Source: a virus. Taken from it: a stretch of 23,141 bases of DNA. The stretch lies in IMG/VR virus record IMGVR_UViG_3300006749_000150, positions 1-23,141 of that record. One strand, 5' to 3'. Below, one piece after another: positions 1,035 to 21,751 of the stretch. Position 1 is the stretch's first letter. Each line of letters begins with the position of its first letter. The position numbers and the translations under genes were made by a program. Under the pieces are notes generated by a model that made no database searches, had not been told where the DNA came from, and saw nothing but the letters and a program-made list of their open reading frames with translations.

Positions 1035-1036
1035 CT

Positions 1037-1306: not shown

Positions 1307-1308
1307 AT

Positions 1309-2868: not shown

Positions 2869-2903
2869 ATAAGAAACTTCATAAAAGTAGGGGATACTAA
2901 ACC

Positions 2904-4344: not shown

Positions 4345-4354
4345 TACCAAAACC

Positions 4355-4370
4355 TTAGCTTTTAAGCTAA
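4355..4370. repeat. 16-bp A/T-rich palindrome between genes (operator or weak terminator)
   Basis: TTAGCTTTTAAGCTAA is a perfect inverted repeat that can form a 6-bp stem with a TTTA loop. It lies 10 bp after the stop of the four-cysteine gene and is followed by TGCAATTTTAATTAACC. The stem is A/T-rich, so as a terminator it would be weak. Its symmetry also fits an operator. Confidence 0.4.
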
Positions 4371-4406
4371 TGCAATTTTAATTAACCTTAATGAGAGTGC
4401 GATAAA

Positions 4407-5102
4407 ATGAGTAAACCAACCTATAAATTAACCAGTGTAGAAGCCCTTTACCCAAAGCTAGACCAGCCTTATCACTTTGATAAGAAAGGAGGGAAGAACG
4501 GTAAAGGCGCTAGTGTCCCATGTGATGCTAACGCTCAAGGAGCCGACTACAGTACGCAATTTAAAATGACAGGAGCGAAAGCCAAAGAACTTTTTAAGGC
4601 AATGGCTGAAGCATATGAAGAGGCCAAGGAAGACGATTGGCCTGACCTTACTATGCCGTTTACAAAAGACGACAATAAGATGTTCATAGGTAAAGCTAAA
4701 ATACCTGCTTCTTTTAATAGTCCTCCTAGTCACTATGATTCTTTAAACAATCCTTTAGATAGTGGGTTTCAATTAACTACTGGCAGTACTGTAAGTTTGT
4801 TTATGGAGTTAGTGCCTTACAACGGACAGATGGGTAATGGCGTATCTTTAAGACTACGTGCGGTACAAGTTATCAAGTACAAAGAATACGTAGCCGCGTC
4901 TCCCTTTGACGTTGAAGAAGGGTTTACACAAGAAAGTACTAAACCTAAAGAAGCTGATCTGGACAGTGTGTTTGATGTAGAAGCTGTAGAAGAAAAAGAG
5001 GAAGTTGTTGTAGAACCAAAGGTAAAAGTGTCTAAGAAAAAGAAAGACGCGCCTAAAGACGATGTTGATTTAGCATCATTACTAGATGGATTCGACGACT
5101 AA
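4407..5102 (+). CDS. Single-stranded DNA-binding protein, T7 gp2.5/DUF2815-like
   Basis: A 231-residue protein with the layout of phage gp2.5-like SSBs: an OB-fold-like core (residues ~1-165) with the segments FKMTGAKAKELFKAMAEAYE, DKKMFIGKAKIPASFN-like strands and GNGVSLRLRAVQVIKYKEY, then a low-complexity linker with a Lys-rich patch, then a short acidic tail ending DLASLLDGFDD. Such tails recruit the polymerase and helicase-primase in T7. The start at 4407 is the only sensible one, but its ribosome site is weak (GAGAG about 12 bp upstream). An upstream palindrome and a downstream hairpin flank it, so it may be a separately controlled unit. The family call rests on overall layout, not on a single diagnostic residue. 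Confidence 0.75.
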   Translation: MSKPTYKLTSVEALYPKLDQPYHFDKKGGKNGKGASVPCDANAQGADYSTQFKMTGAKAKELFKAMAEAYEEAKEDDWPDLTMPFTKDDNKMFIGKAKIPASFNSPPSHYDSLNNPLDSGFQLTTGSTVSLFMELVPYNGQMGNGVSLRLRAVQVIKYKEYVAASPFDVEEGFTQESTKPKEADLDSVFDVEAVEEKEEVVVEPKVKVSKKKKDAPKDDVDLASLLDGFDD

Positions 5103-5131
5103 AATAAAAACAAGGGCATCTTCGGATGCCC
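5101..5131 (-). terminator. Intrinsic terminator-like hairpin; U-tract present only on the minus strand
   Basis: Stem GGGCATC (5114-5120) pairs perfectly with GATGCCC (5125-5131) around TTCG (5121-5124). Read leftward, the hairpin is followed by TTGTTTTTATTTT (complement of 5101-5113), a textbook intrinsic terminator. Read rightward, the loop is the extra-stable C(UUCG)G form, but the sequence after it is AAACCTCTTTC, without a proper U-run. It lies between the SSB and primase genes. Confidence 0.7.
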
Positions 5132-5157
5132 AAACCTCTTTCAAGTATGGATAGACT

Positions 5158-8106
5158 ATGGATACCAAACAGTTTCTTAGCACTGTATTGGGTGGTGAAG
5201 GATACTATTGTGTAGCAGGGAAGAAGAACGAAGGGTCAATGAACCAAAAGTTCCACGACTCTTTAGATTCCGCTGCTGAAACCGCAAGAAATTTTGACGA
5301 AGAAGGGCACGATGTTTATTTTGGAGTAGCTTCTTTTGTCGATAAAAACCGCAAAGCTGGCAACGTGCGGGATTTAAAATGTTTATTTCTTGATATTGAT
5401 TGCGGAACGGACAAACCTTACCAGACTCAAGCAGAAGCGTTAAAAGCATTAAGGGCGTTTCGTAAGACGTATGTTTTACCTCGTCCCTACATAATAAATT
5501 CAGGGCGCGGTCTACACGTATACTGGACGCTCGATAAGCCCTACTCCCGTGACGAGTGGGAGCCAGTAGCAAGAACACTTAAAGCGACATGCTTGCAAGA
5601 TGGGTTAGAGATAGACGCTGGCGTAACAGCAGATGCGGCACGGCTACTTCGTGTACCTGACACACGTAACTTTAAAGGAGAACAGCCGCTACCTGTAGCT
5701 GTTGTACTTGAGGGCGAGTCGGGGGTCGATCTTACTACTTTTATAAGCAAGCTACCTGCTGAATTAATACCTGTCCCTTCTATTAATAGTTCTTCTAAAG
5801 AAGACCTTGAAGATATGGAACGGGCTAAAGGAGTTTCAAAATATAAGTACAGGTTTGAAAACTTAATTGCCAAAACTAAACAGGGGGAAGGGTGCGCTCA
5901 CATAGCACGAGCTATACTTGAACCCGATGAACTGACCTATCCAGAGTGGTTACACACACTATCTATAGCTAAACGGTGTGATACAGATGGGGTGGAGGAA
6001 GGCACAACTCCTGCGGTACATTTAATTTCTAAACGTGCGGCAAACTACGATCCAGAAGAAACTAGAAAGATTTCTGAATCCATCGAGTACCCGCACACAT
6101 GTGGTAGGTTTGACGAAGACCATCCCGGTTTATGCGACAACTGTACCCATAAAGATAAGATTAAAAGCCCTATAACTTTGTGTGGAGAGCGACGTGTTGC
6201 TGAACCTAATGAAGAAGGTTTTTATGAAGAGGTAGAAGCCCCTGAACAAATAGTTGAAGTGTTAGAAGATGGAACGGATAAGCAGGATGAAGATGTCCCT
6301 GCCCCACCTCCTGTACCTACTTATCCTAGCACTTATATGAGACCAGAAAGTCAAAGGGGCGTTATAAATAGAACGGTTAACCAAGATACTAATCAAGTAG
6401 ATGATGAACTTATTTATAGACACGATCTATTTCTTTCAAAAATACTACACGATCCTGCTGTGGGGTTGTCTTATGAAATTACACATATAAACAATTTTAA
6501 TATTACTAAACGTTTTATGGCATCTCAAAAGGATTTAACCTCAACAGAAAAATTTAGAGACTTAATGAACGAACAGGGCATCATTCTTTTATCAGGAAAG
6601 GGTGCTAAAGGAGCGGGTAAAGTGCAACGTTATATAGCGGAATGGATGCAACAACTTCAAGATACAACTCCTCATCCACCAAGCGTAAAGACGCAATTTG
6701 GTTGGACAAAAAACTGTAAGTCTTTTGTACTGGGGGATAAAGAAATATTTAAAGGTTACGAGAAAGAAAACCCTGCGGGGGTGCGAACCGCGCAATACAT
6801 TCCTATGTTTGCCAAACAAGGTACATTAGAAAAGTGGAAAGAAGCCGCTAGGTTTTATAATAAAGAGGGGTTTGAACAGCATCAATACATGTTTGGTTTA
6901 AGTTTTGGTGCTCCGCTTATGGAGTTTGTATCTGGAATAGCCGGTGCAATATACAACCTTAACAGTCCTGAAACGGGGATAGGTAAGACTACAGGTATGT
7001 GGGGTGGTGCTTCTGTATGGGGCGACCATAAAAAGTTAGTACTTATCGGAAAAGATACTCCTAACTCTGCTTGGAATCGAGCTGAGATAATAAAAAATTT
7101 ACCACTATATATAGATGAAATATCCAATTACGAACCTAAAGATGCTAGTGACTTCTGTTTTGGTATAAGTGATGGTGCTCAAAGAAACAGGATGACGAGT
7201 GGGGCAGAGAACGCAGAACGTTATAGAGGAGAGCAATGGGCTTTTAGTTGCGGTACTACAGGCAACAGCAGCATAACAGATACAGCATCAAGATGGAGAA
7301 GCTCTCCTAAAGGTGAGTCGGGTAGGGTAGTAAGTCATCTAGCAACCAAACTTTTATTCGGTGCTGGAGATACTTTAAAGGCAAACGATCTTAACGACAC
7401 CTTAGCCGAGAACTATGGGTGGGCAGGAGAGATTTATATTAAGCACGTTATAAATACTTTAGAAGCTACTAAAAATCTTGTCTTAGATACACGAGCGCGG
7501 ATTGTAAAAGATATTAATGGTGAGCCTTCAGATCGTTTTTGGATTGCTCAAGGGGCGACTACTTATGCGGGATGTTTAATAGCAAAGGAGTTAGGTCTAA
7601 TAGATTGGGATTTAGATAATTTATACAAATGGATTATACGAACTATTCTAGCGCAAAAACATGACCTTGAAGAGATGGATATGGATATAGAAGATTTAGT
7701 AGGAGAATTTTACATGGATAATACAAGAAATATTCTTCGTATTTTAAGTACTCAAGATAATAGGGGTTCAGACCTTAGCGATACATTACCCCCAGACCAA
7801 AAAGATTTACCCTTACTTAAACTTGTTGCTAGGCATGAGACAGACACTAATCAATTATTTATTCGTCCCCAACCTTTTAGAGAGTGGTGCGCCAAACATA
7901 AATACGTGTACAAAGCAGTGATAGACTTAATGAGAGTGCATATGCAAGCCAGAACTAATGTAAAAAAGCGCATGGTCAAAGGGACAAGTATGGATTCGGG
8001 TTTGGACAAAAAGAAAAAAAGTTTAAGTACTCATGTAATAAGATGTCAACTAGGTAACGATCCAATGGCACAGGAGGAGGACAACGATGAGGTTGAGTCC
8101 GACTGA
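5158..8106 (+). CDS. Primase-helicase: AEP-type primase domain fused to DUF927/SF3-like helicase domain
   Basis: A 982-residue fusion for priming and unwinding at the replication fork. Residues 1-200 are an archaeo-eukaryotic-type primase: catalytic Asp79/Asp81 in CLFLDIDCG, SGRGLHVYW (115-123) with His120, and the LLRVPDTRNFKG strand. Residues 240-345 hold a PriCT-like helical part and a CGRFDEDHPGLCDNCTHKDK cysteine set (Cys315, 326, 329, 342), likely zinc-binding. After an acidic/Pro linker (350-400) comes an ATPase: Walker A LNSPETGIGKTTG (Lys610-Thr611; the leading Gly is absent, as in DUF927 proteins), Walker B LPLYIDEIS (Asp653-Glu654), and WAFSCGTTGNSSI (sensor-like). No clear ribosome site precedes the ATG at 5158, but the N-terminal FLSTVLGGEGYYC belongs to the primase fold, so this start is kept. 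This replaces the TOPRIM primase of T7 gp4. Confidence 0.88.
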   Translation: MDTKQFLSTVLGGEGYYCVAGKKNEGSMNQKFHDSLDSAAETARNFDEEGHDVYFGVASFVDKNRKAGNVRDLKCLFLDIDCGTDKPYQTQAEALKALRAFRKTYVLPRPYIINSGRGLHVYWTLDKPYSRDEWEPVARTLKATCLQDGLEIDAGVTADAARLLRVPDTRNFKGEQPLPVAVVLEGESGVDLTTFISKLPAELIPVPSINSSSKEDLEDMERAKGVSKYKYRFENLIAKTKQGEGCAHIARAILEPDELTYPEWLHTLSIAKRCDTDGVEEGTTPAVHLISKRAANYDPEETRKISESIEYPHTCGRFDEDHPGLCDNCTHKDKIKSPITLCGERRVAEPNEEGFYEEVEAPEQIVEVLEDGTDKQDEDVPAPPPVPTYPSTYMRPESQRGVINRTVNQDTNQVDDELIYRHDLFLSKILHDPAVGLSYEITHINNFNITKRFMASQKDLTSTEKFRDLMNEQGIILLSGKGAKGAGKVQRYIAEWMQQLQDTTPHPPSVKTQFGWTKNCKSFVLGDKEIFKGYEKENPAGVRTAQYIPMFAKQGTLEKWKEAARFYNKEGFEQHQYMFGLSFGAPLMEFVSGIAGAIYNLNSPETGIGKTTGMWGGASVWGDHKKLVLIGKDTPNSAWNRAEIIKNLPLYIDEISNYEPKDASDFCFGISDGAQRNRMTSGAENAERYRGEQWAFSCGTTGNSSITDTASRWRSSPKGESGRVVSHLATKLLFGAGDTLKANDLNDTLAENYGWAGEIYIKHVINTLEATKNLVLDTRARIVKDINGEPSDRFWIAQGATTYAGCLIAKELGLIDWDLDNLYKWIIRTILAQKHDLEEMDMDIEDLVGEFYMDNTRNILRILSTQDNRGSDLSDTLPPDQKDLPLLKLVARHETDTNQLFIRPQPFREWCAKHKYVYKAVIDLMRVHMQARTNVKKRMVKGTSMDSGLDKKKKSLSTHVIRCQLGNDPMAQEEDNDEVESD
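8072..8080 (+). promoter_or_regulatory. Strong Shine-Dalgarno inside the end of the primase gene
   Basis: AGGAGGAGG ends 6 bp before the ATG at 8087. It is the strongest ribosome site in the rightward block and supports the small overlapping gene 8087-8305 as real. Confidence 0.75.
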
Positions 8107-8305: not shown

Positions 8306-8317
8306 AACTCTTAGTCT
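8279..8317. terminator. Inverted repeat at the meeting point of the convergent gene blocks
   Basis: CTAAGAGTT (8282-8290) pairs perfectly with AACTCTTAG (8306-8314) around a 15-nt loop. On the rightward RNA the stem can extend with G·U, G-C and G·U pairs to 8279/8317. Both stop codons lie within it (TAG 8303-8305, TAA 8311-8313 on the minus strand). Neither side has a strong U-tract, so it is a candidate two-way terminator or RNA 3'-end structure rather than a textbook one. Confidence 0.5.
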
Positions 8318-11300
8318 AAATCTTCTGCACGTCGTGCAAGTATACGTCGCGCCTGTCTAGCTGAAGTACTTATACCACCTAACTGTCTTGATATTTCATC
8401 GGTCGTCCTATGTTGATCCATAGAACGCCTTAAAGTATCTCCACTAATCGCTACATAAGGATTTCTGCGCGAAAACTCAACCATCTCTTCGGATATATCT
8501 CGCATACTGTCTATATCCCCTTCCTTTAACGCTAAGTAATAATCTCGCATTAGGTCAGTACGTTTGGAGTTTAGCCTTCGTTCCAATCCTTTATCTCTTG
8601 CATTTATCTCTAACTGTTTTGTGTAGCCCGCAGGAGCCAAGCCAAGTGATTGAGCAAAAATATTCCACGGATTTATATCCTCTAAGATAGGATCGCCGCG
8701 AAGGGTAGTCGCTCCTTCAGTCGCGTACCGTACAGATTTCATCCCATTAGACAGCGCAGAAGGCAAGAATCTCTCTGTACCGCGCCATATCTCACCCTCA
8801 CCAACTAACCTTAACCCTTGAAGCATTCGATCTGCCGTACCATAAACTGGACCACCTAGTATTTCTGCCAAGCGCATAAGGAGGTCTTCTTCTTGACGGT
8901 TTGGTAAAGATCTATAGACCAAATTAGTCATACCAATACGTGGAGCTACGTCAACTCCCGCTACTGCATTAATTACCCCTGAGTACATACCCTCACCAAA
9001 GAAGCTTGCGGCTATACTATCAAAGTCCTCGTCTTCGTCATCTAAGAATATTGTATTGGCTAGGAGCGCAATCGCACCGTAAAGCGGTAGTCCTTGAACT
9101 CCTGCTAACAACCCAGAAGAAGCAAACAATCCTACAATCTGTCTTTTGGCAATTCGTTTTGTTTCTTCAGCAGCAACTTGTGCATCTTGCCTATCTGCGT
9201 CTGTTAATTGAGACTCATCACCATCATATTTATCAGCAGCAATACGTCTTATTTCTCTAGGTAATGAATCTGCAAGTAACTGTTTAGCCATCTTATACTG
9301 TAAATAGTACATAGAAATGCCAAATCGTTTGTACATCATCATTACGTTACCCGCATCACCTTGAGCAAAACGAGGTGCGGTTTCAATCATAGCTCCACTG
9401 TTAGTTAGTTCTACATCTGATAGAGCAATGTCAGCAGCTTCTTGAAAATCTGTTTCGGTAAGTTCTCCTTTTTTAGCGCGTTTTGCTAACTCTAAATCGT
9501 AAGAAGCCATTGCAGTAACTTGTCGGTTAAAGCGTTCGCCTTGATGGAACATCCAACCCATATAAGCATTCGCCGTACTCCAAGCGGTGTTAGCAGGGTT
9601 TTCCATCTCTAAGTTTTCGGCAGTAGTAGAGATGTTAGCTTGCCCACGAGCTTCCAACATTTCAGTAAGAGCTTTATATCTTGCCAACTCAGGAGAAAGA
9701 TTAGGGTCATTAAAGTCTATGTTGGATAGCGACGGACCTTCAAAGATTTCCGTACCGCCTGTCTCTTCATTAAACACTTCAGTCCTACGGTTCATGCCGG
9801 TAGCGAAAAACGTCTTCCGTGCATTGTTCATCGCCTTCATAGTGTCTTTGTATCCGTACTTACCGCCTAAATAGGGCAGTACTACTATGGGTAAGTTACT
9901 GGCGTTTACTAGTACAGAAGATACGTTAAAGCCTAACGTCATTCCAAAACCCGCACTCTTAAGTGCTTTACTCCAAGTAGCTATCCTAGGATTACGTGCA
10001 AAGTCTATATACCCCTGCAAGTTTGCGTTAAGTGCTTCTGCTCCTGCCTGTAAGTCTGGAGTCCTATATGAATTTGCAGCTAAATTTATTTTTTCGCTTA
10101 TTTCGCTAAGTGCTAAGTCATGTTTAAGGTTTACAATTTGACTTGTAAAATTAGGCATACGCTCTCTAAACACTTTTAACGCATCACGTTCAAAACCTAA
10201 GACACCTTCTCTGGGCCTAAACGCACTGATTAAAGAACGCTCTGGTAGGACATCAAACAAAGAGTCTAATATTACGTCTTGGACTTCTTGAGATACTCCT
10301 TTTGCTCTTACATCTCCTAACAATTTAAAAGCAAACTGTGAGTCAACTTGCCCAAAACGTTTGGTTCTAGGGTCACGAGTAAGCTTTTCAATACTGTTTA
10401 GCTGAAGTCCTAAAGCGTCTGCATTAGCTCTAAGTTGTCGTTCAGCTTTGTCCCGTTGAAACTTAGATTCAAAAGCTTCTTTATAGGGTTCTAAAGTTCC
10501 AGTATTTGGATCTATCGCTGAGTACATTAACCAATGTGTGCCTTTACGATAGAGTGGAAAGTACGGTTCGATAGTTTCTTTTTGCAGTAATTGAGTTAGT
10601 AGTTTATCTTTTAACGTTCTTTTTACATCTGAATCTTCTATTGCATCCAAGCGTTTTGTCATAGTCGCTACAAGTTGTTTGTACACTTCACTATAAGCAT
10701 CGCGCAATGTACTGTAAGACTCAATTACAGCTTTTCGTTGTGGACCCGACAACCCATTTAATTTGGCGTTCATGGTCTTCCACGCTTCTAACTTAGCGAC
10801 ATCACCTTCGTATGCGCTTTCTAATTTAGTAGGGTCGGTTTTTAAAAGAGTACTTTCTGCTGCCCAAAAGTCTAAAACTTCTTTAACCTTCTTATCTCCG
10901 TCAATTATATTCTCTACTTTTTTAGCAGTGTCCCTTGTTAGGTTTAAGTACCTTTGACGTTCCCCATTCTTAGTTTGAAGTAGTTTGAATAATTCTTCTG
11001 CGGGAGCGGCTATCTTTGGGTATTCATCTTTAGCAAGTTGAAACACCGCATTCAGCGGTAAGAAGTCTAATAGCTTTGCTTTTGCCCCGTCGGTTGCTGT
11101 ACCAAACCATGTCCCTACTGCTTCTACATCTTCTTTAGTTACCTTACCTTTACTAAACCGACCAAGCGCATCTAATGTATTTTTCTCACCTTCTTCAATA
11201 GTAGCGGAGAATAAGCTAGCAGCATCACGAGATTCAGGAGCGGGAGAGATAAGGTCAGCAACTATCATGTCCGCTTTGTCCATAGCAGATTCTACTTTTT

Positions 11301-14157
11301 TGCTAGGTTGTCCACGGAACTTACGTATCATGTTGTTTACAATATTTTTAAACTTACTCCATAACGTAATCTTTTCGCCTTTAGCGTTAATTCTTGCTAG
11401 CTTGGCTTGGAACTCAGGATTACTAAATGCTTCTGCAATAAACTCATCAAGGTTCGTTGCACCATACGCAGTATCTAACCTGTCTCTAACTGACTCAAAC
11501 AGATTACGCATTTGTTGTGCCGCAGCAGAGTTTCCAGCAACTTCGTGAGAAGTAACTGCGTGCATGGATTCGTGAAGTAGTACATGGTTCCTAAGCGTTA
11601 CGTCTTGATTTAAAGTAATCGTGTCCGTTTTAGGATCATACAAACCAGCGACTGACTCACCTTTAGAATTAACTAAACCTCTACCCATTACTATTTTGGT
11701 GTTACCTAAACCTTTTTCTACAGCAGCGGCAACGCGAGCTACACTAGGGTCGGAACTTTGGGCAAGATCATTAAGGGCTCCACGTAAGTCTCCTGCTGCA
11801 AGTTTAGCCCGAATCTCTTGGGATAGTGGCTGACTGGTTACTGCAATAGCAGAGGCAGATAGGGGCAGCCCCATACTGTCTCTTATAAATCGTACAGTCT
11901 CAGAAAAGTCGGTTCGTGATTTTCCACTTAAGTTAGCCTTTATCCATGCTTCAGCAGCTTCGTTTTCAGTGGTTACCCCGCCAGACATATCCCCAGCAAC
12001 TGCATCAATACCTTCTTCTAACGTTTTCTTACCTTTAAAAAACTTTGCTATCGGACCATTTGGGTTAGCTTCAATCTCTGCTTGTACCCTGTTCATGTCT
12101 TCTGTTTTAGTAGTAGACGGGGGTGCTTGGTCTGGGGCTTGAGTTTCTTCTCGTTCGGCTATAACTACGTCTGGATCGACATCCGCAGTCACATCTACAT
12201 CTTCCACCACCACTTCTTCTTGTGCCGCATCTACATCCGCAGCCCCTTCTTCCACCACCACTTCTTCTTGTGCTGGTCTAGCTCTGGGACGAGTAGGACG
12301 TAAAACACCCCCACGAGGGCCAAACATTTCAAGTTGCTCTTGACCCTGACTGTCTAACGCTTCATCCACACGTTGTTCGGCGGCAATTTGTGCGTCTAAA
12401 TCAGCACCTATTTCTACTTCTTGTTGTGCTATAGCATCAGCAGCGGCAGCTTGAATAACAGGAATTTCTAACTGAGCTTCGCCCGGTGCTTCTCTACCTG
12501 TCCTCTGCGCTCTGTCAAAAGCATCTTCTATAACATTGAGTCCTTCAGGTTTAGCAGCACGAGCAAGAGCTGAAGTTTGAGCTTTGTCTTCTTCTAATTG
12601 CGCTTCGCGTTGAGCAAAAGCTGCATCTACTTCTTCCTGTCTAATATCTTGTGCAATAGCGTCATCTATTGTTGTTTGTACTGATGCAGGACCGCTATCA
12701 GCAGGTTGTGCTTGCGCTTCAGTCGTAGCAAAAGCGTCTTTAAAAGCAGGAACAGTAAGAAGACTAAGTGCTTTTTTACGGTTTTCTGGGTAGCGTGATT
12801 TAACTGTAGGATTGTCCGCGTAGGCTATGATGTCGGCTACGCCTTGTTGCGCTTGTTCAGAGTTTGACAGATCAAGAGCAGTAAGTTTCTTTTGTAGTGT
12901 TACGCTTGTAATCCCTAAATCTTTTAGTTCTTCTTTAGATATACTTGTTTTTCTACCCGCTACAACTTCAGGTAGCAATTCTCTTTGTGCACCTTCAGCA
13001 GTCAGACGCGCTTCTTCCGCTAAAGCTTCTTCGTAAGCAGGAGCAAACCTTGCAGGATAAGCAACTCCTTCGGGGTTTACCATTATAGTAGAAGGATCGG
13101 ATGGAGTCGGTGGCGGCAGTATTGCTTTATTTTGCTCCAAAGCTGGTCGAGTAGGAGATGTTCTTTCTAAAATTTCGCCCTCTAAAGGGGCTTGAGGAGG
13201 CGGCAATGTTGCGGTTTGTGTACGCTGCCCAATAGTTTCTTTTTCTTGTTGCGTTAAATCCATACCCCCACGACGACGACCGGGAATAGCAAGTTCAGCC
13301 AATGCAGATAGCAGTCCACCTACTCCTGCACCATAACCAAGAGACTCTCCTGTACCCGTAAACGTGCCAGTTTCAGGGTCGTAAATACCTTGAGAGATAA
13401 GATTCTGTGCTACTTCTGCCGAAGCTTCTTGGAGTCCTTCCCCTCCTGCGGCACTAGCTACTCTGCGTAATCGGGATAACACATCACCAGCGGGCTGGTC
13501 GCCAAGAGATTTACCTAAACCTTTAGCAGTTCTAGCTGCGCGAATAGTCTTACCTATAGCAAACGGTACTAGTGTCTCACCTAATCCGGGGATTATACCC
13601 AGTCCTGCCGCTTTACTAATCTGTTCTTCAGTAGCTCCCGCTGCTTCTGCTCGTTTTGCAGCTTCACCTGATCCAGCAGCCGCACCTAACCCCACACCTG
13701 TACCTAAAGCTACTCTACTAGCTAGACTTCCTAAGCCGCCTAATCCACCTAGGCCACCTGTAGCGATAAAAGGAATAGTAGAACCTGTAGCTTCTGCTAG
13801 TTTACGAACAACGGTATCTTCATAACCGCCTCTAGGTAATAGTCCTTCTTGGACCCCAGCTCCGTATTCAGCAATAGCTTTACGTGCAGCTTGTTCTTGC
13901 TCTTCAGGAAGTAAAAACGCCGCTCCAGTAGCGGCTGATTCAAGAAGTCCCGCAGCGCCACTAGCTAACCCTTTACCAACTTCACTAGCATAACCTCCTA
14001 AAGTAGTTTCAGGTGGCTCAAGAGGGTCTATACCTGCCTCTCTTTTTTGTAAGGCCGCAGGAGCATAGATTTGTGTACGTTGTTGGGGGGTTGTCCCTTC
14101 AGGTACGTAGTAATCTATTGTACTACCGTCTGTTAAGTTAGCACGGGCTATAGGCAT
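8311..14157 (-). CDS. Giant internal virion/ejection-type protein with zincin metallopeptidase motif (polyvalent protein)
   Basis: A 1948-residue virion-type protein. The start ATG at 14157 has an AAGGAG site. Residues 1-35 form a small 'LTDG..DYYVPEGTTPQQ' module frequent at phage protein N-termini. Residues 54-300 are Gly/Ala-rich with hydrophobic stretches (FIATGGLGGLGGLGSLASRV) like ejection proteins. Residues ~300-700 are a disordered Gln/Glu/Ala region with an acidic repeat. A gluzincin motif LLHESMHAV (His862, Glu863, His866) is followed by DEFIAEAFSN (Glu905/Glu909), a plausible third zinc ligand. Residues ~1000-1600 are helical. A MMMYKRFGISMYYLQYKMA block near 1610 and a hydrophobic segment (~1675-1702) followed by DDEDEDFD recall the LPD38/PLxRFG region of large polyvalent phage proteins. 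It is likely packaged and injected with the DNA (inference). Domain naming beyond the zincin is tentative. Confidence 0.85.
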   Translation of the reverse strand: MPIARANLTDGSTIDYYVPEGTTPQQRTQIYAPAALQKREAGIDPLEPPETTLGGYASEVGKGLASGAAGLLESAATGAAFLLPEEQEQAARKAIAEYGAGVQEGLLPRGGYEDTVVRKLAEATGSTIPFIATGGLGGLGGLGSLASRVALGTGVGLGAAAGSGEAAKRAEAAGATEEQISKAAGLGIIPGLGETLVPFAIGKTIRAARTAKGLGKSLGDQPAGDVLSRLRRVASAAGGEGLQEASAEVAQNLISQGIYDPETGTFTGTGESLGYGAGVGGLLSALAELAIPGRRRGGMDLTQQEKETIGQRTQTATLPPPQAPLEGEILERTSPTRPALEQNKAILPPPTPSDPSTIMVNPEGVAYPARFAPAYEEALAEEARLTAEGAQRELLPEVVAGRKTSISKEELKDLGITSVTLQKKLTALDLSNSEQAQQGVADIIAYADNPTVKSRYPENRKKALSLLTVPAFKDAFATTEAQAQPADSGPASVQTTIDDAIAQDIRQEEVDAAFAQREAQLEEDKAQTSALARAAKPEGLNVIEDAFDRAQRTGREAPGEAQLEIPVIQAAAADAIAQQEVEIGADLDAQIAAEQRVDEALDSQGQEQLEMFGPRGGVLRPTRPRARPAQEEVVVEEGAADVDAAQEEVVVEDVDVTADVDPDVVIAEREETQAPDQAPPSTTKTEDMNRVQAEIEANPNGPIAKFFKGKKTLEEGIDAVAGDMSGGVTTENEAAEAWIKANLSGKSRTDFSETVRFIRDSMGLPLSASAIAVTSQPLSQEIRAKLAAGDLRGALNDLAQSSDPSVARVAAAVEKGLGNTKIVMGRGLVNSKGESVAGLYDPKTDTITLNQDVTLRNHVLLHESMHAVTSHEVAGNSAAAQQMRNLFESVRDRLDTAYGATNLDEFIAEAFSNPEFQAKLARINAKGEKITLWSKFKNIVNNMIRKFRGQPSKKVESAMDKADMIVADLISPAPESRDAASLFSATIEEGEKNTLDALGRFSKGKVTKEDVEAVGTWFGTATDGAKAKLLDFLPLNAVFQLAKDEYPKIAAPAEELFKLLQTKNGERQRYLNLTRDTAKKVENIIDGDKKVKEVLDFWAAESTLLKTDPTKLESAYEGDVAKLEAWKTMNAKLNGLSGPQRKAVIESYSTLRDAYSEVYKQLVATMTKRLDAIEDSDVKRTLKDKLLTQLLQKETIEPYFPLYRKGTHWLMYSAIDPNTGTLEPYKEAFESKFQRDKAERQLRANADALGLQLNSIEKLTRDPRTKRFGQVDSQFAFKLLGDVRAKGVSQEVQDVILDSLFDVLPERSLISAFRPREGVLGFERDALKVFRERMPNFTSQIVNLKHDLALSEISEKINLAANSYRTPDLQAGAEALNANLQGYIDFARNPRIATWSKALKSAGFGMTLGFNVSSVLVNASNLPIVVLPYLGGKYGYKDTMKAMNNARKTFFATGMNRRTEVFNEETGGTEIFEGPSLSNIDFNDPNLSPELARYKALTEMLEARGQANISTTAENLEMENPANTAWSTANAYMGWMFHQGERFNRQVTAMASYDLELAKRAKKGELTETDFQEAADIALSDVELTNSGAMIETAPRFAQGDAGNVMMMYKRFGISMYYLQYKMAKQLLADSLPREIRRIAADKYDGDESQLTDADRQDAQVAAEETKRIAKRQIVGLFASSGLLAGVQGLPLYGAIALLANTIFLDDEDEDFDSIAASFFGEGMYSGVINAVAGVDVAPRIGMTNLVYRSLPNRQEEDLLMRLAEILGGPVYGTADRMLQGLRLVGEGEIWRGTERFLPSALSNGMKSVRYATEGATTLRGDPILEDINPWNIFAQSLGLAPAGYTKQLEINARDKGLERRLNSKRTDLMRDYYLALKEGDIDSMRDISEEMVEFSRRNPYVAISGDTLRRSMDQHRTTDEISRQLGGISTSARQARRILARRAEDLD
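12201..12273 (-). repeat. Direct repeat (25 bp twice, 48-bp period) encoding an acidic linker
   Basis: The 25 bases at 12201-12225 recur exactly at 12249-12273. On the minus strand they encode two copies of AQEEVVVE inside the disordered middle of the 1948-residue protein. The period is 16 codons, so gain or loss of a unit keeps the frame. Confidence 0.85.
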
Positions 14158-14170
14158 AGTGGACTCCTTA

Positions 14171-16156
14171 TTATCCTACAATACCCGCATCACCTGCTAC
14201 ACCTGTAACCATACCTTTACCTAAAGCACTTTCTTTTGCAGCGTTTACGTATCTTTCTATGGTGTTGTTTAAGAGGACACCTTTTGCCACATCATATTCT
14301 GCCGTACCAAAATCATAAGTGTCAGCTAAATCGTCTAGTGCCGCTCTGTACTCTGGGTCTAAATCTAATCTTCCTAAAGCCTTATTAGCAATATCAAGAA
14401 CCGCTGTATCTATCTTTCCTGTGTAATCAGCATTTAACTTTGCCACAGCTAACCTATAGTCTTGTTGTGCAATGTTTTGTTTTAACAACCTATCAAGCGC
14501 CTGTGCATTCAACGCTTCTGCCTGTCTTCTTTCTGCTAACTCGTAAGCATTTAAACGCCGTCCTGCACCACCTAACGCGCCAGCAGTAGTAGTTTGTCCT
14601 GCACCACCCAACAAAAACTCACTTAACGCACGGAAGTCTATGTCTTGTTCTGAGTCTTCTTTAGGCTTTCTACCCACTCTAGGTTGGTCCATTATGCTAC
14701 GTAGTTTCTCTAAATTAGTAGGTTCACCTCGATACATAGCAGCAGTAATACCTTCATTTTGTGGAAGGCTTGGCTCACTGTCTTGCGTTTCTCTTCTAGG
14801 CATACGATCTTCAGGAGGGAGATTGCTAATTTGTTCTTCTATTTGTGCTATTCTTTCTTCCTGCATTCTAGGAGTGAACGCTCCTGTTGCGTCCATCATC
14901 CCCATACGCAACATAGCTTCTTTAGATACGCCTTGAGATTCAGGTAATGTGCTTAGTATTCCCCTTATATCCCTAGCCATATCAAAAGGTCCGTACACCA
15001 TACCAACATCTCGAACTTGATCTACTTCAATGGCTTCCTCCGGGGAGTATAAATTTTCTTCAACATCAAATCGTGTCTCAGCATTAAGATCAACAACTGG
15101 ATCGCCTTGTGCAAAACTGACAATCCCACCTTGTTGTTTATTGACTACACCTCGACCCATCAAAATATCTTTACGAGTAATTTTACCGTCACCGCTTAAA
15201 TCAGGGAATCCACCTTCTTTAAGAGACACAATACCGCCACCTGCCATGTCATTTGCAGCTAAAGCTTTAGCCCTAGCCTCTTTCAAAAGGTTTAATTCGT
15301 TTAATAATTCTGGAGGTGCATCTGTTGGAAAGACATTCCCTTTCGTTGGAATATCCATCATTTTTGCCTTTCTACGGGGTCTTGTTATAAGGTCTATTTC
15401 TCTTTCTAAAAGACGTATTCTTTCTGCAAACTCTTTACTTAACGGGTTCATTGGTCCAGTAGGATCTTGTGAGGTCAACGTTTCAAACATTTCATTCATG
15501 TTTTTATTTGTAGACTGCCTACCCATTTCATCATACATAGCCCCGCCTTTTGCATACCCAACAATACCACCACCTACCATGCCAGCAGTGTTTTCAGGAG
15601 TGGGTGCAGGAGCTTGAGCCGCAGTGCTACCTTCATAGTTCATTAGCTCACGGCGTATATTTCGCAAGCCTTCTTGGTTACCTTCAGCAAGAAATTTAGC
15701 CTCTATCTCTTTAAGTTTTAAATACCTTTGACGTTGAGCTTCTTCTGAGCTTGGGCTTAAGAAGGGAGCGTCTTGTTGTTTAGTTTTTCCACCTTCTGCA
15801 TACCCAACAATCCCGCCTTGTGCAGCTCTCATCATATTAGGAGCGGGCATACCAGCCACCCCTTGAGTTTGTTGCATTTGAGTGCCACGTTGCTGTATGC
15901 CGGGAGCGAGTTCAGAAATAATTTCATTACGGGAAGTCATTAAAGCTTCTTGCTCTAGTTGATCCCTTACAGTACTAGGATTAGTCTGCATAGATGCTTG
16001 AATTTGATTTGCCGCAGCTTGTTTCTCATTGTTAAGTTGTTGTAAAGCAAGCAAGTCAATTAGTTGCTGACTTTGCGCGTACCGTTGCTGTAGTGCTTGT
16101 GGGTTGTTTGCGTAAGCACTCTCTCGCATACTAACTTCTTCAAATATACCAGCCAT
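14171..16156 (-). CDS. Virion-associated protein with repeated GGIVxYAxGG motifs and an EF-hand-like loop
   Basis: A 661-residue protein of unknown biochemical role in the late block. The start ATG at 16156 follows AGGAGA; the gene is 2 bp after its upstream neighbour. The N-terminus (1-100) is Gln-rich and helical. The motif GGIVGYAEGG occurs at 114-123 and in variants at 196-205 (GGIVGYAKGG), 307-316 (GGIVSLKEGG) and 343-352 (GGIVSFAQGD). Residues 319-330 (DLSGDGKITRKD) match a dockerin/EF-hand calcium loop. Residues ~500-661 are helical (ALGGAGRRLNAYELAERRQA, then TAVLDIANKALGRL) and may be an assembly domain. Position between other Gly-rich late proteins suggests an internal or tail-associated virion component. 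No enzymatic motif is visible. Confidence 0.8.
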   Translation of the reverse strand: MAGIFEEVSMRESAYANNPQALQQRYAQSQQLIDLLALQQLNNEKQAAANQIQASMQTNPSTVRDQLEQEALMTSRNEIISELAPGIQQRGTQMQQTQGVAGMPAPNMMRAAQGGIVGYAEGGKTKQQDAPFLSPSSEEAQRQRYLKLKEIEAKFLAEGNQEGLRNIRRELMNYEGSTAAQAPAPTPENTAGMVGGGIVGYAKGGAMYDEMGRQSTNKNMNEMFETLTSQDPTGPMNPLSKEFAERIRLLEREIDLITRPRRKAKMMDIPTKGNVFPTDAPPELLNELNLLKEARAKALAANDMAGGGIVSLKEGGFPDLSGDGKITRKDILMGRGVVNKQQGGIVSFAQGDPVVDLNAETRFDVEENLYSPEEAIEVDQVRDVGMVYGPFDMARDIRGILSTLPESQGVSKEAMLRMGMMDATGAFTPRMQEERIAQIEEQISNLPPEDRMPRRETQDSEPSLPQNEGITAAMYRGEPTNLEKLRSIMDQPRVGRKPKEDSEQDIDFRALSEFLLGGAGQTTTAGALGGAGRRLNAYELAERRQAEALNAQALDRLLKQNIAQQDYRLAVAKLNADYTGKIDTAVLDIANKALGRLDLDPEYRAALDDLADTYDFGTAEYDVAKGVLLNNTIERYVNAAKESALGKGMVTGVAGDAGIVG

Positions 16157-16158: not shown

Positions 16159-16983
16159 CTAATCTCCTAAGAAACCTAAACTGCTAAGAAGGCTTACGAT
16201 ACCGCCCGCACCTTCCATAACATTAGATGCAGTACTTACTTCAGGGTACTGATAGCTTTGAGTGCTAATAGGCAAGCCTTGTAGTAGCGACTGCTGGTAC
16301 TGTATTTTTTTGAAAGGATCATCTCTTTCAGTTTCAAACTGAGCTATATCTGCCATAACTCCTTGGCTTTCGATAGCACGTTGTTCTGCACCACCTGCGC
16401 GTTGAGCGGCTAAAGCTTGCAATCCATAATTTTGTTCAGTGTTAAATTGATTCTGTGCTTGCTGAAAAGCGTCTTGATAACCTGCGCCTGTGATTCCTGC
16501 CATTCTATCTAATAAACCACGCTGTAGTTCAGCTTCCGCAATCCCTTGACGTGACCCACCATACGCTCCTGCCTTACCGTACTGACTTTGCAGTCCTTGC
16601 TGAGCTATATCAGCTTGTCTTCTTGCGGCTGCATATTGCGGTTCAAGTGCGCCTTGTAAGTAAGGAGTCATGTATTGTTGAAGTACGCTATCTGTAGCGG
16701 GAGCATAAGTCCCTGTTTGTCCCATTGCGGCTTGCTCGGCGGTAGGTGGAGTATACCCTGCACCTGTAAATGACCCTGCCATACTTGCTTGTGGGACGGC
16801 TAAATTAGCAAGTCCTGTAAAAGCTTGATTCTGTAGTTGCGATTGTCCAGCAGTAAGTGGTCCTTGGTAGGCTTGATAGGGCATATCTGCTAACGCAGCA
16901 CCCTTACCCAGCATCTCGCTAACGTAAGGCCCAGCATAGGGAGATAGAGAACTGCTTGTTCCTAAAAAAGTAGGAGTTGCCAT
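16159..16983 (-). CDS. Putative internal virion / DNA-ejection protein (274 aa)
   Basis: A 274-residue protein rich in Gln, Ala and Gly. It has an N-terminal segment SLSPYAGPYVSEMLGKGAAL, a central helical region (QYAAARRQADIAQQGLQSQY, then GAYGGSRQGIAEAELQRG), a DDPFKKIQYQQSLLQGLPI segment, and a hydrophobic C-terminus (GGIVSLLSSLGFLGD). The Gln/Ala-rich helical composition and size resemble short-tailed-phage ejection proteins (T7 gp14 or P22 gp7 class), though I cannot show homology by eye. The ATG at 16983 has an AAGGAAA site and follows the previous stop by 10 bp. The terminal GGIVS echoes the repeated motif of the 661-residue neighbour. Confidence 0.78.
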   Translation of the reverse strand: MATPTFLGTSSSLSPYAGPYVSEMLGKGAALADMPYQAYQGPLTAGQSQLQNQAFTGLANLAVPQASMAGSFTGAGYTPPTAEQAAMGQTGTYAPATDSVLQQYMTPYLQGALEPQYAAARRQADIAQQGLQSQYGKAGAYGGSRQGIAEAELQRGLLDRMAGITGAGYQDAFQQAQNQFNTEQNYGLQALAAQRAGGAEQRAIESQGVMADIAQFETERDDPFKKIQYQQSLLQGLPISTQSYQYPEVSTASNVMEGAGGIVSLLSSLGFLGD

Positions 16984-16993: not shown

Positions 16994-19249
16994 TTACGCC
17001 AAATATTGATTAGGGTTTATTTGCTTACCCTGTTTAGGATTACCAGTGCGGTCTTTACGCACTCTTTCCATCATACTGTACAGGTTCTGCGCTCCTGCAT
17101 CGGAGTTACCATTACCCAAATGGCTTACCACATCTGCGGGTATAACAAATTCACCATCACTTAATCTAGCTGGCTGCGTACCGCCTATTGTAGCAGGAAC
17201 TTGATCTGCCATACCATCCGTAGAACCGCCTAAGTAGTACTGTTCTATATCACCACCTTGAGCATATTGGTCAGGGTATAAGTATTTATTAACATCAGCT
17301 ACAGTGGTGTTGCCATATAGATCTGGGTACAGAGTACTATAATACTCAAGAACTTCGTTAACATCTGTGTTACCTGCCTTTATAAGACGAGTAATAAGGT
17401 CTTCTTCTTCTATACCTAAATCAGTAGCTAATTGATTCGGAGTTTTTTCTCCTGAACGCAACTGCTCTTCAAAAAAGTTAAAGTTTGGCCCCATTGGACT
17501 TTCATCACTAGACTCATCAACAAAATCAATAACAGAATCAGTAGTAGGTGTAGTAGGTATAACAGGTGTAACAGGTGTAACAGGTGTAGTAGGTATAACA
17601 GGTGTAACAGGTGTAACAGGTGTAGCAGCAGTGCTAGTGTCCGTTGGAATTGCACCTAAGAAAGAATTAGCTAAGGCTATATTTTCTGCTTCTTGAGCTG
17701 CCAAAGCTTGTGTATATGCAGCATTTTGAGCCGCTATCTGCTCCGCACCTATGATGGCAGGAAGTCCACCCTCTGTAGTGCTAGTGGGTGTGTACTGAAC
17801 ATCTGTAAAGTATCGTCTTCCTGCACCACCGGGCCGTCTACCAGTATTATCAAAAGCATTAGGTACTAGCTCTCGTGTTGCCTTATAGTCAGGAATACCG
17901 CCCTGATAGCCTTGACTTCCTTGAGTGCTAGCACTTCCACCAAGCCCTCCTGCTAATCCGCCTAAACCAGCTCCAATAAGACCGATTAAGTTTTGGTTCT
18001 TATCGTCCTTTAGAAAGTCCATAACCTTACTGCCAAAACCTTTTGGAGAACCGCCATTATTAAACTTCTGCACAGGCCCACCTTTGTTATATATGTACGG
18101 CATAATATCCTCGTCATTGCTAATGTCAGGTGCAAAAATACTCGGCCCTGCAATATTATATAAATAGTCTATATCTACTAAACCACCGGGGTCTACCTGT
18201 ACCATGCGCTGCCCAGCAGAAGATGTACCAAAACCACCACCTCCACCACCAGATGATTCAGAAGCTACAGCGGGCGTTTTAGGTTCGGGCGCAGGTTGAT
18301 CTGTACCTGCATTAGTACGTGGTATAGCAGCAGGTGTTAAATCCCCAACTGTTGATACTTTAGGTTTTGTAGGGTCTTGAATATCTATCGTTGGTACTTT
18401 AGGTGTTGTAGTTTCGGTGAGTGATAAAGACTCTGGTGGAGGTGTACCCTTAACAACTGTATCAAGGTCACCCATATCTCCGGTAACATCTAATTGTTCT
18501 ACTCCACTCGATCCAATCTTTGGTTCTTTTCCAAGGTCAACACCAATAGCTGTAGGAGCAGGGACAATATCTTTTGCGCTTTCAATTATGTCTCTTACTT
18601 GCTCTGTAGACATTCCTGTTTCGGTAGCTGCTGTACCTACTAAAATATCTTCTATGGTACTTCTACTTAGAACATCTCCAGCCGCTGCTTTACCTGTAAG
18701 CACTCCAGTTACTTTGTTTAATACAGCATCAATAGTTGGATCGCCTGTCGTCACTCCTGTTTGTGTACCACCGGGCGTTGTGCCTGTACCTATTACTGGG
18801 CTACCACCGGTTTGCCCCCATACTACTGTACCGCTTTTTTGTATAGGAGCGCCGATTACTTTAGTAGGGTTAGGCAGCTTGAGAATATCAAAAACAGTAT
18901 CTATACCCTCACCGACCTGTGTACCTATGTTTCGTACAGTTTCTGTAGGAGACAAGCTAGTAATTTGATTAATTAAATCTGTGTTTCCTAACTCCGCAGC
19001 TTGTTGTAGTAGGTCTACTTCTTGCTCACCCACACCTTCAATATCTTCTGGACCACCTGCCATACCGGGAGTGGGTTGTGCTAGTAACGTAGCTAGACCT
19101 TCCTCAATAGCATACCTTTCTGCTTCTTCAGGAGTCATGGGGGTAGCTTCCATACCGCCCCTACCAAAAAGAGCATCTAACCCAAAAAGCCCCGCAGACT
19201 GTAGTAAGGATTTAAGCGCTTTGGATAATACTATTGTTTCTACTGCCAT
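16994..19249 (-). CDS. Large Gly/Pro-rich virion protein with VTP repeats and conserved phage C-terminal motif
   Basis: A 751-residue late protein. I chose ATG 19249 (MAVETIVLSK), 7 bp after the upstream stop. A longer version would need a TTG at 19294 and a 38-bp overlap with the previous gene. Order of parts: a hydrophobic N-terminus; a Thr/Pro/Gly-rich disordered region; GGPVQKFNNGG (18050-18082) followed by NLIGLIGAGLGGLAGGLGGS, a membrane-active-looking stretch; a VTPVTPVIPTTP repeat linker; a small helical domain (NQLATDLGIEEEDLITRLIK); GGDIEQYYLGG (17225-17257); and a C-terminal block ARLSDGEFVIPADVVSHLGN, which I recognise as recurrent in marine phage virion proteins. A tail or ejection role is inferred from context. 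No enzyme motif is seen. Confidence 0.78.
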   Translation of the reverse strand: MAVETIVLSKALKSLLQSAGLFGLDALFGRGGMEATPMTPEEAERYAIEEGLATLLAQPTPGMAGGPEDIEGVGEQEVDLLQQAAELGNTDLINQITSLSPTETVRNIGTQVGEGIDTVFDILKLPNPTKVIGAPIQKSGTVVWGQTGGSPVIGTGTTPGGTQTGVTTGDPTIDAVLNKVTGVLTGKAAAGDVLSRSTIEDILVGTAATETGMSTEQVRDIIESAKDIVPAPTAIGVDLGKEPKIGSSGVEQLDVTGDMGDLDTVVKGTPPPESLSLTETTTPKVPTIDIQDPTKPKVSTVGDLTPAAIPRTNAGTDQPAPEPKTPAVASESSGGGGGGFGTSSAGQRMVQVDPGGLVDIDYLYNIAGPSIFAPDISNDEDIMPYIYNKGGPVQKFNNGGSPKGFGSKVMDFLKDDKNQNLIGLIGAGLGGLAGGLGGSASTQGSQGYQGGIPDYKATRELVPNAFDNTGRRPGGAGRRYFTDVQYTPTSTTEGGLPAIIGAEQIAAQNAAYTQALAAQEAENIALANSFLGAIPTDTSTAATPVTPVTPVIPTTPVTPVTPVIPTTPTTDSVIDFVDESSDESPMGPNFNFFEEQLRSGEKTPNQLATDLGIEEEDLITRLIKAGNTDVNEVLEYYSTLYPDLYGNTTVADVNKYLYPDQYAQGGDIEQYYLGGSTDGMADQVPATIGGTQPARLSDGEFVIPADVVSHLGNGNSDAGAQNLYSMMERVRKDRTGNPKQGKQINPNQYLA
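17547..17627 (-). repeat. Tandem repeat: nine 9-bp units in 36-bp higher-order units
   Basis: Nine consecutive copies of a GGTRTARYA unit run from 17547 to 17627. Four units make a 36-bp period (17547-17582) that is repeated exactly (17583-17618), with a ninth variant unit after it. The minus strand encodes the proline-rich stretch VTPVTPVIPTTP, twice. All units are multiples of three, so changes in number stay in frame. Confidence 0.92.
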
Positions 19250-19256
19250 ACTAAAC

Positions 19257-19904
19257 CTACGGTGTTGGTAGCGTTTCTGGCAACGCTGACACAAAAGTTA
19301 CAGTTACTAGGGTAGACGGCACGGCAGGGCGGGGACTTGCAGCCGCCTGATAATCAACCGTTATGTTTGTATCGTCTGTTGCCCACATAAGTTCTATATA
19401 TTGCCCTGCTTGTATGTCTATTGTAAAACTGTACCCAAAGTCATCTACTCCACCTGACCCTGATACTACGTGCAGTCTACCAGTATTTGCTATATCTACC
19501 CCACTCCTACGCACCCAGAACGACACTTCTTTTGCGCTAGCACTACCGCTAGTAAGTTCCACTGAGAGTTCAAAGTTATAAACTCCTGAGTGAGTTGGTG
19601 TAATCCTTGTCTTTGGTGTGCCTGTTACGCTTATGGCTTCACCTAAATATGTATTCTCAAACTGTAACGCATATGCTGTGTTTATAACACTGGCGTTCTG
19701 ATCTACAGTAGAAAAGAACTTTGCATTCGGAGACTCTATAAACCGACCTCCGTACTCCCCAAACACACTGTTTATACCGCTCGATAGCAAGTTAAAAAAG
19801 AGTCGCAAGATGTTGTTCAGTGCATCAAGGTACTCTTTTAACGGCCCAGCTTTGGGTATTGGTAGCGCAGGGACTTGAACTTTCTGTACGAGCCGCTCTG
19901 CCAC
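19257..19904 (-). CDS. C1q/TNF-like jelly-roll appendage protein (tail fibre/decoration type)
   Basis: A 215-residue protein. Residues 1-55 carry an amphipathic helical anchor (LKEYLDALNNILRLFFNLL). Residues 65-205 show the alternating beta pattern of phage C1q-like domains: STVDQNASVINTAYALQFEN, ITPTHSGVYNFELSVEL, EVSFWVRRSGVDIANTG, FTIDIQAGQYIELMWATDD, and a closing VPSTLVTVTFVSA strand. These domains form trimers and act as receptor-binding or capsid/tail decoration proteins. The start is GTG at 19904, sharing its G with the previous stop (TAG TG), with AGGAG 6 bp upstream, so translation is coupled to the tail-nozzle gene. Which surface it decorates is not shown by sequence. Confidence 0.78.
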   Translation of the reverse strand: MAERLVQKVQVPALPIPKAGPLKEYLDALNNILRLFFNLLSSGINSVFGEYGGRFIESPNAKFFSTVDQNASVINTAYALQFENTYLGEAISVTGTPKTRITPTHSGVYNFELSVELTSGSASAKEVSFWVRRSGVDIANTGRLHVVSGSGGVDDFGYSFTIDIQAGQYIELMWATDDTNITVDYQAAASPRPAVPSTLVTVTFVSALPETLPTP

Positions 19905-21751
19905 TAGCCTCTCCTGCCGTCAGGACGCATCTCCAATCGTGGTATACCTAACTTCCATGCTACACCTAGCTCAGTAGACTCAAGCTTAAACGCCATCTGC
20001 CTACCCCGTACACGCACAAATACTTGCCCTGTAAACTTCTCAATAGGTACAGTAGCAGAACGAGTTACCGTAGCGTTGTCTACGCCACCCTCAGATGTAG
20101 GGTTATAGTAACCAGAACCAGAGTTCTCCATAGGGAACAGAGTCATCACTGCCGCAGGGCTATCTACTGTAGACCCCTCAAACGTTATGTCAGGGAGCAT
20201 ACGATTAATAAACATAAACCTGTCACCATTATCCAAATCAAACTCAGAGGATAAGAGCGTAGCTGTAATGGCAGAAGGCACACCCGTTTGGTTATCATCC
20301 ATACCGACTTCATGATTAACTAAGTTGTTACTGTAAGTAGCAGCTAGTGGGTTCTCTCTAAGATCAGCGTCTATCCAAGCACTACGTGATAGGTTTCCGT
20401 AATACCAAATGTCTTGTAGGTAGTTGTACACCACATATCGGTCATTCTGTGTAGACCCCTCAGAGCAATAGAACCACCATACCTCGTCGAACCGCTCGTT
20501 AGTACCCGCTATGACTTGTGCATACTGAGTGAAGTTAAAGTCATTAAACACATAACTTCGTACACTACACGGTAGGGTCTTAACCGTACCATCGTACATA
20601 TAGAACTTGTCAGTGCCCATCCAGTACGCAATGTTGCCTGAATAAGCCGCTGCATTAGGACCAGCTATTGTTATGTTATCGCCTAATAACTGAGCACCCC
20701 ACACCTCTGGTGCGCCTAAATACTGCATACCGTACAGCGCAGTGTCAGTCCAAATAAGAACCTCTTGTCGTGCTTGTAGAGTTGTAATGATTTCACTACC
20801 CCTAGACAGACGTAAGCTACCTGCTTGATTAGTCGCCGCAGGAGTCCAGTTAGCTACATCCTCTTGGTCAGACCAGCGAATCAACATAGGATCAAGAGTG
20901 GCACTGCCCAGTGCGTTTGAACCAAAACAAAAGGCAAAACGGAAGATGTCTGATACAAAGGTCTTGTTAACTATAGTAGGCACGTTGGATGCACCACCGA
21001 GAGAAGATACGTACACTGCACGAGTTGTCAGATCATTACTCGCATCCCAGTAGAATATAGGCCCACCCCTGTAGCCAAAGAACAAGTCCTCACCAAAGTT
21101 AGACTGGCTCCATATCCGCATAGGAGCATCTGTAGCACCACTGCTCCCCCAAGTGCCTGACCCCCAAGTGCCAGCACTCCAACCTCTAAACGGAACGGCA
21201 ATCTCGTTACCTGTGTTTATCTGATACACCGCAGTGACTGTACCTCCACCCGTAGCAGCAGACGACGCTTGGCTTGCGGCAGTTATGTTGTAAGAATCCT
21301 CGTCTATAAAACTAATCTGAAACTCACCGTTTAGGGTAAGACCGCCCACTGCTGAAGCACCACTAAACGTAACAAAGTCATTCTGAAGCGCACCGTGTGC
21401 AACGTCAGCAACGAGAACAGTAGTAGAGTTTAGCGTTGTGGTAAACGGGTTTGTCAGCGTTGCTGTGGCTCTAACAGGAGTAACATCAAAGTAAGCTCCA
21501 CCACGCTCGATGTAGTACTTGAGGTTAGTGCCTACGGCTACAAGGTTCTGCCTCTGGAGAGTAACCCAGTTAAGCATAGACCGACACACACCAAGAAAAG
21601 TAGCAGCAGATATACGTACCCAACCTCCAATCTTCTGAGGCATACCCCGTCTGAACCGCACCTTATCTGTTTCGTACCAACTGCCTTCAGCCGCATACCG
21701 CGTATTTTCACGGTCAACTCCCGGCTTTAACTGTAGTTGTTGTAGTGGCAT
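19904..21751 (-). CDS. Tail nozzle / packaged-DNA stabilisation protein, P22 gp10-like, with FCCH-like insert
   Basis: A 615-residue structural protein. The N-terminal pattern LKPGVDRENTRYAAEGSW, then DKVRFRRGMPQKIGGW, is typical of podovirus tail stabilisation/nozzle proteins. Repeated blade-like strands follow (VGTNLKYYIERGGAYFDVTP; ARQEVLIWTDTALYGMQYLG; YWMGTDKFYMYDGTVKTLPC; VWWFYCSEGS), indicating a beta-propeller. Residues ~99-178 are a separate beta insert (HGALQNDFVTFSGASAVGGL, then DSYNITAA) resembling the FCCH-like insert of phage tail proteins. The protein would sit at the tail tip below the portal. The ATG at 21751 has GAGGT 6 bp upstream and lies 12 bp after the muramidase gene. 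The structural class is confident; the exact tail position is inferred. Confidence 0.82.
   Translation of the reverse strand: MPLQQLQLKPGVDRENTRYAAEGSWYETDKVRFRRGMPQKIGGWVRISAATFLGVCRSMLNWVTLQRQNLVAVGTNLKYYIERGGAYFDVTPVRATATLTNPFTTTLNSTTVLVADVAHGALQNDFVTFSGASAVGGLTLNGEFQISFIDEDSYNITAASQASSAATGGGTVTAVYQINTGNEIAVPFRGWSAGTWGSGTWGSSGATDAPMRIWSQSNFGEDLFFGYRGGPIFYWDASNDLTTRAVYVSSLGGASNVPTIVNKTFVSDIFRFAFCFGSNALGSATLDPMLIRWSDQEDVANWTPAATNQAGSLRLSRGSEIITTLQARQEVLIWTDTALYGMQYLGAPEVWGAQLLGDNITIAGPNAAAYSGNIAYWMGTDKFYMYDGTVKTLPCSVRSYVFNDFNFTQYAQVIAGTNERFDEVWWFYCSEGSTQNDRYVVYNYLQDIWYYGNLSRSAWIDADLRENPLAATYSNNLVNHEVGMDDNQTGVPSAITATLLSSEFDLDNGDRFMFINRMLPDITFEGSTVDSPAAVMTLFPMENSGSGYYNPTSEGGVDNATVTRSATVPIEKFTGQVFVRVRGRQMAFKLESTELGVAWKLGIPRLEMRPDGRRG

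Follow-up and report, generated by a model that had tools for sequence, protein, structure and literature searches.

Introduction

Zincin-like metallopeptidases (MPTases) are the commonest domain of the phage polyvalent proteins described by Iyer et al. in 2017, about 36% of which carry one. These metallopeptidases were predicted there, and self-processing or effector roles were proposed for them (PMC5512222). A first-pass annotation of the DNA studied here had called a protease less usual among phage internal proteins, which is wrong in the light of that survey. The virion RNA polymerase (vRNAP) of phage N4 combines an N-terminal region, a low-complexity linker and a C1 domain with an HExxH motif; it is packaged whole and has been proposed to be the last protein ejected (PMC12633501). 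PhiM1 gp48 is located in the capsid ejectosome (PMC11440229). In JC1, a 4515-aa DarB-like protein was found in virions by mass spectrometry (PMC9144972).

Here we describe a giant protein encoded in a viral record of 23,141 bases (the window), and compare it with these systems.

Results

The giant protein and its motifs

The gene of the giant protein starts with ATG and fills the 1948-residue open reading frame (ORF) that the first-pass annotation had delimited; the strand, missing there, is minus (Table 1). The coordinates given earlier for HESMH proved exact, and the Gly/Ala-rich N-terminus (G+A content of 35% in residues 1-300), the acidic linker and the C-terminal hydrophobic segment were all recovered by composition or hydrophobicity. 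The linker is probably flexible. HESMH is the only HExxH occurrence in the protein, and DEFIAEAFSN begins 38 residues after it. Among composition-shuffled copies, HExxH arose in 0.3%, and HExxH with [DN]E[FL] 25-60 residues downstream in 0.02%.

Table 1 Features of the giant protein and of the adjoining late genes in the window
Feature	Position	Strand	Evidence and remarks
Giant polyvalent/ejection-type protein gene	8311..14157	-	ORF, NF032893 match, synteny; 1948 aa, last gene of the late operon
Gly/Ala-rich N-terminal region, residues 1-300	13258..14157	-	Composition and alignment; several moderately hydrophobic segments
Linker, residues 301-759	11881..13257	-	Composition and alignment; acidic, P/Q-rich and poorly conserved (301-690), then a short less acidic stretch
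Zincin-like MPTase domain, residues 780-950	11308..11820	-	Conservation, models, Foldseek, hhalign, PDB-sequence profile search
HESMH, residues 862-866	11560..11574	-	Motif scan; predicted zinc ligands H862 and H866, predicted general base E863
DEFIAEAFSN, residues 904-913	11419..11448	-	E905 (11443-11445), predicted third zinc ligand
Region equivalent to Pfam LPD39, residues 1015-1190	10588..11115	-	LPD39 in three homologues and Parlo DarB; helical in the model
PLxRFG/tail-700 C-terminal module, residues 1198-1948	8314..10566	-	NF032893, E 7.5e-94
PLYRKG, residues 1201-1206	10540..10557	-	Aligned with PLSRFG of Parlo DarB
Most hydrophobic segment, residues 1682-1700	9058..9114	-	Hydrophobicity; within the tail-700 module
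661-aa protein	14171..16156	-	Synteny; normally found just upstream of the giant gene, in the ejection-gene slot
274-aa DNA ejection protein homologue (phrog_4287)	16159..16983	-	E 2e-7, synteny
766-aa ORF	16994-19294	-	TTG start inside the preceding gene
615-aa podovirus stabilization/virion structural protein homologue (phrog_3287)	19904..21751	-	Homology

Gene neighbourhood

At loci with enough flanking sequence, the late genes follow a conserved order, from the stabilization homologue through the 215-, 766-, 274- and 661-aa proteins to the giant gene, with some of them undetected in a few loci. Wherever flanks were available, the giant gene ends the late operon, after the ejection genes. 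It is convergent with the primase/helicase-like, 231-, 264- and 134-aa and SNF2 genes. From this conserved order, together with the phrog_4287 neighbour, it follows that the giant gene occupies the ejection-protein slot. Phage DSL-LC04 has a similar layout, with a "DNA transfer protein" in the giant's place; a comparison of the two proteins found no relation, and the equivalence is positional only.

The plus strand of positions 1-8106 holds an early module, convergent with the late operon, that comprises a DNA polymerase A fragment, a possible PD-(D/E)XK-type nuclease, an SNF2 helicase and a 982-aa primase/helicase-like protein. The SNF2 helicase is free-standing here, whereas DarB-type relatives have a helicase fused into the giant protein. 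For the 766-aa ORF, the true start is probably a later in-frame ATG (MAVETIVLSK). Dispersed GGIVxYAxGG-like repeats occur in two proteins of the virion operon, in residues 114-352 of the 661-aa protein (14171-16156, minus strand) and in residues 405-691 of the 766-aa protein (16994-19294, minus strand), for example GGIVGYAEGG, GGGIVGYAKGG, GGGIVSLKEGG, GGPVQKFNNGG and GGDIEQYYLGG.

Conservation among homologues

Scanning viral contigs with the whole protein as query retrieved 20 loci, and with the domain profile 456 related stretches, of which 80 loci were kept. H858, H862, E863, H866, E905, E909 and N913 are invariant, each in 72/72 distinct homologues. The conservation of the putative catalytic residues is far beyond chance. 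Loss of the H/E/H/E set in homologues had been named beforehand as the result that would speak against a zincin; all 72 homologues keep it, and the zincin reading is not refuted.

In a 29-member full-length alignment, residues 851-950 form the best-conserved stretch of the chain and the linker (residues 301-750) its least conserved part. A search of the linker in this alignment for a conserved island or cleavage site revealed no strongly conserved island. The same tail-700 module follows the zincin domain in every homologue with an intact 3' end.

Zincin relatives in known phages

Tblastn and profile searches led to the N4-like vRNAPs of Kosakonia phage Kc283 and Pectobacterium phage CB1, which are annotated as MS-MS confirmed structural proteins, as well as to Xanthomonas phage internal virion proteins, the DarB of Serratia phage Parlo and the crAss-like cr130_1. 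Using hhalign in local mode, the zincin domain matched the C1 region of ten N4-like vRNAPs with 98.2% probability (pair E 3e-14), while reversed and column-shuffled controls gave 0.4% or less. A residual 77% match, between the MPTase and the beginning of C2, may come from two vRNAPs with HExxH further along. Against PDB sequences, the domain profile retrieved the PhiM1 tetrameric ejection protein gp48 (8vb2, E 0.007) as the best match, followed by an internal virion protein (9sfn, E 0.012); in both, HExxH and the E-F/L helix are in register with the giant protein. An HExxH followed by an E-F/L helix in register is also common to PhiM1 gp48 and the f30-Xaj internal virion protein, but these two are shorter than the giant protein (1263 and 1636 aa) and belong to the Autographiviridae. 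NF032893 was not detected in PhiM1 gp48.

The general base and the ligands are kept in relatives with <30% identity. The Glu matching E905, followed by F or L, is present in N4, Kc283, CB1, f30, Parlo, cr130 and PhiM1, whereas the E909 position is W, Y or another residue in several relatives (W or Y in N4-like phages, f30 and Parlo). Because E905 is always kept across relatives and E909 is not, E905 is the likely third zinc ligand. Thus, of the two candidates put forward earlier, Glu905 stands and Glu909 does not.

Two of these relatives show peculiarities of their own. In cr130_1 gp80 (NC_055901), in-frame stops occur near HExxH, inside the zincin domain, under table 11, and are probably due to stop-codon reassignment. 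Parlo DarB has a second HExxH (HEAFH) at residue 2557, upstream of LPD39, and may have two metallopeptidase domains.

Predicted fold

AlphaFold2 models were obtained for residues 760-1010 (10 sequences, pLDDT 68) and for residues 760-1948 (1189-residue model, 60 sequences, pLDDT 78). The secondary structure of the domain is identical in both, with three strands (roughly residues 821-825, 838-841 and 846-850), the HExxH helix (857-874), an intervening helix and the E905 helix (903-912). It matches the zincin core of a three-stranded sheet with one N-terminal and two C-terminal helices, which is the core described by Iyer et al. for polyvalent-protein MPTases (PMC5512222). Of the structural check suggested by the first-pass annotation, the topology part came out in favour of a zincin.

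In the Foldseek comparison, which had likewise been suggested, zincins ranked top for the small model (anthrax lethal factor, probability 0.99; PPEP-1, 0.87), but the E-values were weak (0.06 at best) and the TM-scores low. These matches are a resemblance of the predicted structure at fold level, as was also reported for the N4 domain by Iyer et al. (PMC5512222). The 1189-residue model gave only noise against the PDB, with no PDB zincin. Searches of BFVD returned strong matches to uncultured-phage proteins (TM up to 0.69), several of them named large polyvalent protein-associated. Conservation, model topology, the N4 C1 profile match and the Foldseek zincins support the prediction of a gluzincin-type metallopeptidase.

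Probable affiliation with polyvalent proteins

The C-terminal 750 residues score 315.5 bits against NCBIfam NF032893 (tail-700, PLxRFG), above the curated cut-off of 100 bits. The module aligns end to end with the C-terminus of Parlo DarB at 27% identity, and at the position of the PLxRFG motif the giant protein has PLYRKG, with one substitution, and Parlo DarB has PLSRFG. A Pfam scan of the giant protein gave no domain above threshold, LPD39 included. Three of the four homologues scanned have LPD39 above the gathering threshold, between protease and tail, and Parlo DarB likewise has it ahead of its tail. No other enzymatic domain was found in the giant protein, which consists of the MPTase as its only recognisable enzyme, an LPD39-like segment and tail-700.

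The giant protein fits best among the phage polyvalent proteins sensu Iyer et al. 2017, as a reduced form. With the proteins of that study it shares its size as a large late-gene product, an MPTase with HExxH and a downstream-helix Glu, LPD39 (in family members) and a phage-type context, but a methylase, helicase, ART, kinase or lysozyme domain was not found in it. With the DarB-like/PLxRFG protein of Serratia phage Parlo (gp081) it has in common the whole-length tail-700, an LPD39-like region before tail-700 and an MPTase domain. Parlo DarB, in contrast, is 3764 aa long, carries SLT, helicase and methylase, and has its matching MPTase N-terminal to helicase and methylase, not adjoining LPD39.

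The N4 vRNAP resembles the giant protein in its homologous zincin and in the order of N-terminal region, low-complexity linker, zincin and large helical C-terminus; in N4-like phages the vRNAP gene likewise has genes of virion proteins beside it and faces other genes convergently. However, the giant protein is without RNA polymerase domains, as no vRNAP Pfam domain was found in it and the N4 vRNAP gave four. An N4 vRNAP minus its polymerase was also considered, and rejected for the C-terminus (tail-700 versus N4 C2, hhalign 0.1%). The earlier suggestion of a virion or ejection-type protein is supported by gene order, by the DarB-like C-terminal module and by the homologous zincins in virion ejection proteins.

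Discussion

Guided by the sequence, its conservation, the predicted fold, the family membership and the gene order, we infer that the giant protein is packaged and ejected, and that it is a zinc-binding protease which most likely cleaves itself or co-ejected partners, either while it is being delivered or later. This is our preferred reading, held tentatively and with a little less than even confidence. The giant protein would then be a polyvalent protein that a podovirus packages in its virion for ejection. Its N-terminal 300 residues would probably make contact with membranes or with partner ejection proteins, and be followed by a flexible acidic linker, a presumably catalytically competent gluzincin, the LPD39-like segment and the PLxRFG/tail-700 module common to DarB-type injected proteins. 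Packaged with the neighbouring ejection proteins, it would leave the virion before the DNA or together with it, and the zinc protease would cut during or after delivery, for example freeing the C-terminal module from the membrane-bound part.

The processing by such MPTase domains predicted by Iyer et al. (PMC5512222) counts for a protease, whereas the N4 vRNAP, packaged unprocessed and without degradation on purification (PMC5512222, PMC12633501), counts against it. The DarB-like protein in JC1 virions (PMC9144972) also speaks for our reading; the linker, with no conserved island to mark a cleavage site, the weak Foldseek E-values and the larger model, which retrieved no PDB zincin, speak against it. 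As homologous proteins are found whole in the virion, we prefer a time of action in the course of delivery or later to a maturation step that precedes packaging. Self-cleavage or cleavage of co-ejected proteins is favoured over a host substrate, on thin evidence, since throughout the family the domain comes with a single C-terminal module.

A zincin acting as a host-directed effector, which would cleave a host protein after injection (e.g., a defence, envelope or regulatory protein), is possible but unlikely. This reading stays alive because the linker lacks a conserved self-cleavage site next to a strictly conserved catalytic site. It is also in line with the host- or DNA-directed activities of DarB-type relatives (methylase, helicase, SLT), with the dedicated effector or secreted peptidases among the closest Foldseek zincins, and with the roles allowed by Iyer et al. 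(PMC5512222). However, nothing points to any host substrate, and the domain, unlike swappable effectors, is tied to a single invariable C-terminal module wherever the 3' end of a homologue is complete.

Less probable still is a structural role, in which the zincin fold, perhaps with its zinc, is kept as a threadable folding unit or as a dock for the C-terminal module, and proteolysis is absent or incidental. The structures of the N4 vRNAP C1 and PhiM1 gp48 have been solved, and those papers report no protease activity (PMC12633501, PMC11440229); the words protease, peptidase and metallopeptidase do not occur in the PhiM1 paper (PMC11440229), and our literature searches retrieved no report of an activity. 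Yet a purely structural role would not need E863 and all ligands, which are kept in 72/72 homologues and below 30% identity.

We give low credence to a broader version, by which the ejection machines of podophages would share the zincin as a functional component (N4 C1, PhiM1 gp48, f30-type proteins and the giant-protein family). The zincin would become active only after ejection and cut proteins that belong to the ejectosome or are linked to the membrane, so as to release the C-terminal module or take the channel apart. There is a slim chance of a maturation autoprotease, with itself or other ejection proteins as its substrate, at work before packaging or in its course. This has been suggested for P1 DdrB, a protein with a C-terminal MPTase that undergoes processing before it is packaged (PMC5512222), but in N4 the homologous protein is packaged at full length (PMC5512222) and the linker offers no conserved cleavage site. 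A chance HExxH match in a helical structural protein, for which the merely moderate confidence of the first model (pLDDT 68) might speak, is hardly credible and already contradicted by the shuffling, the 72/72 conservation and the N4 C1 profile match.

With this giant protein, the 2017 prediction of Iyer et al. gains a large, deeply conserved test case whose zincin stands as the sole recognisable enzyme, and the domain, found in about 80 uncultured viral loci, is a well-populated addition to the known MPTase class. What goes beyond their study is the constant architecture and gene order across these loci, the choice of E905 as the likely ligand and the connection made to the PhiM1 ejection protein. 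Furthermore, two proteins of solved structure are now linked, the N4 vRNAP with its unexplained HExxH domain and the PhiM1 ejection protein, which makes activity and timing testable in laboratory phages.

A scan of genome contigs yielded one contig of a metagenome-assembled genome (MAG) with the same phage gene order, JARGNI010000084.1, binned as a Verrucomicrobiales MAG and with a 76% identical domain. Either a viral contig was binned with this MAG, or the contig is a hint of the host.
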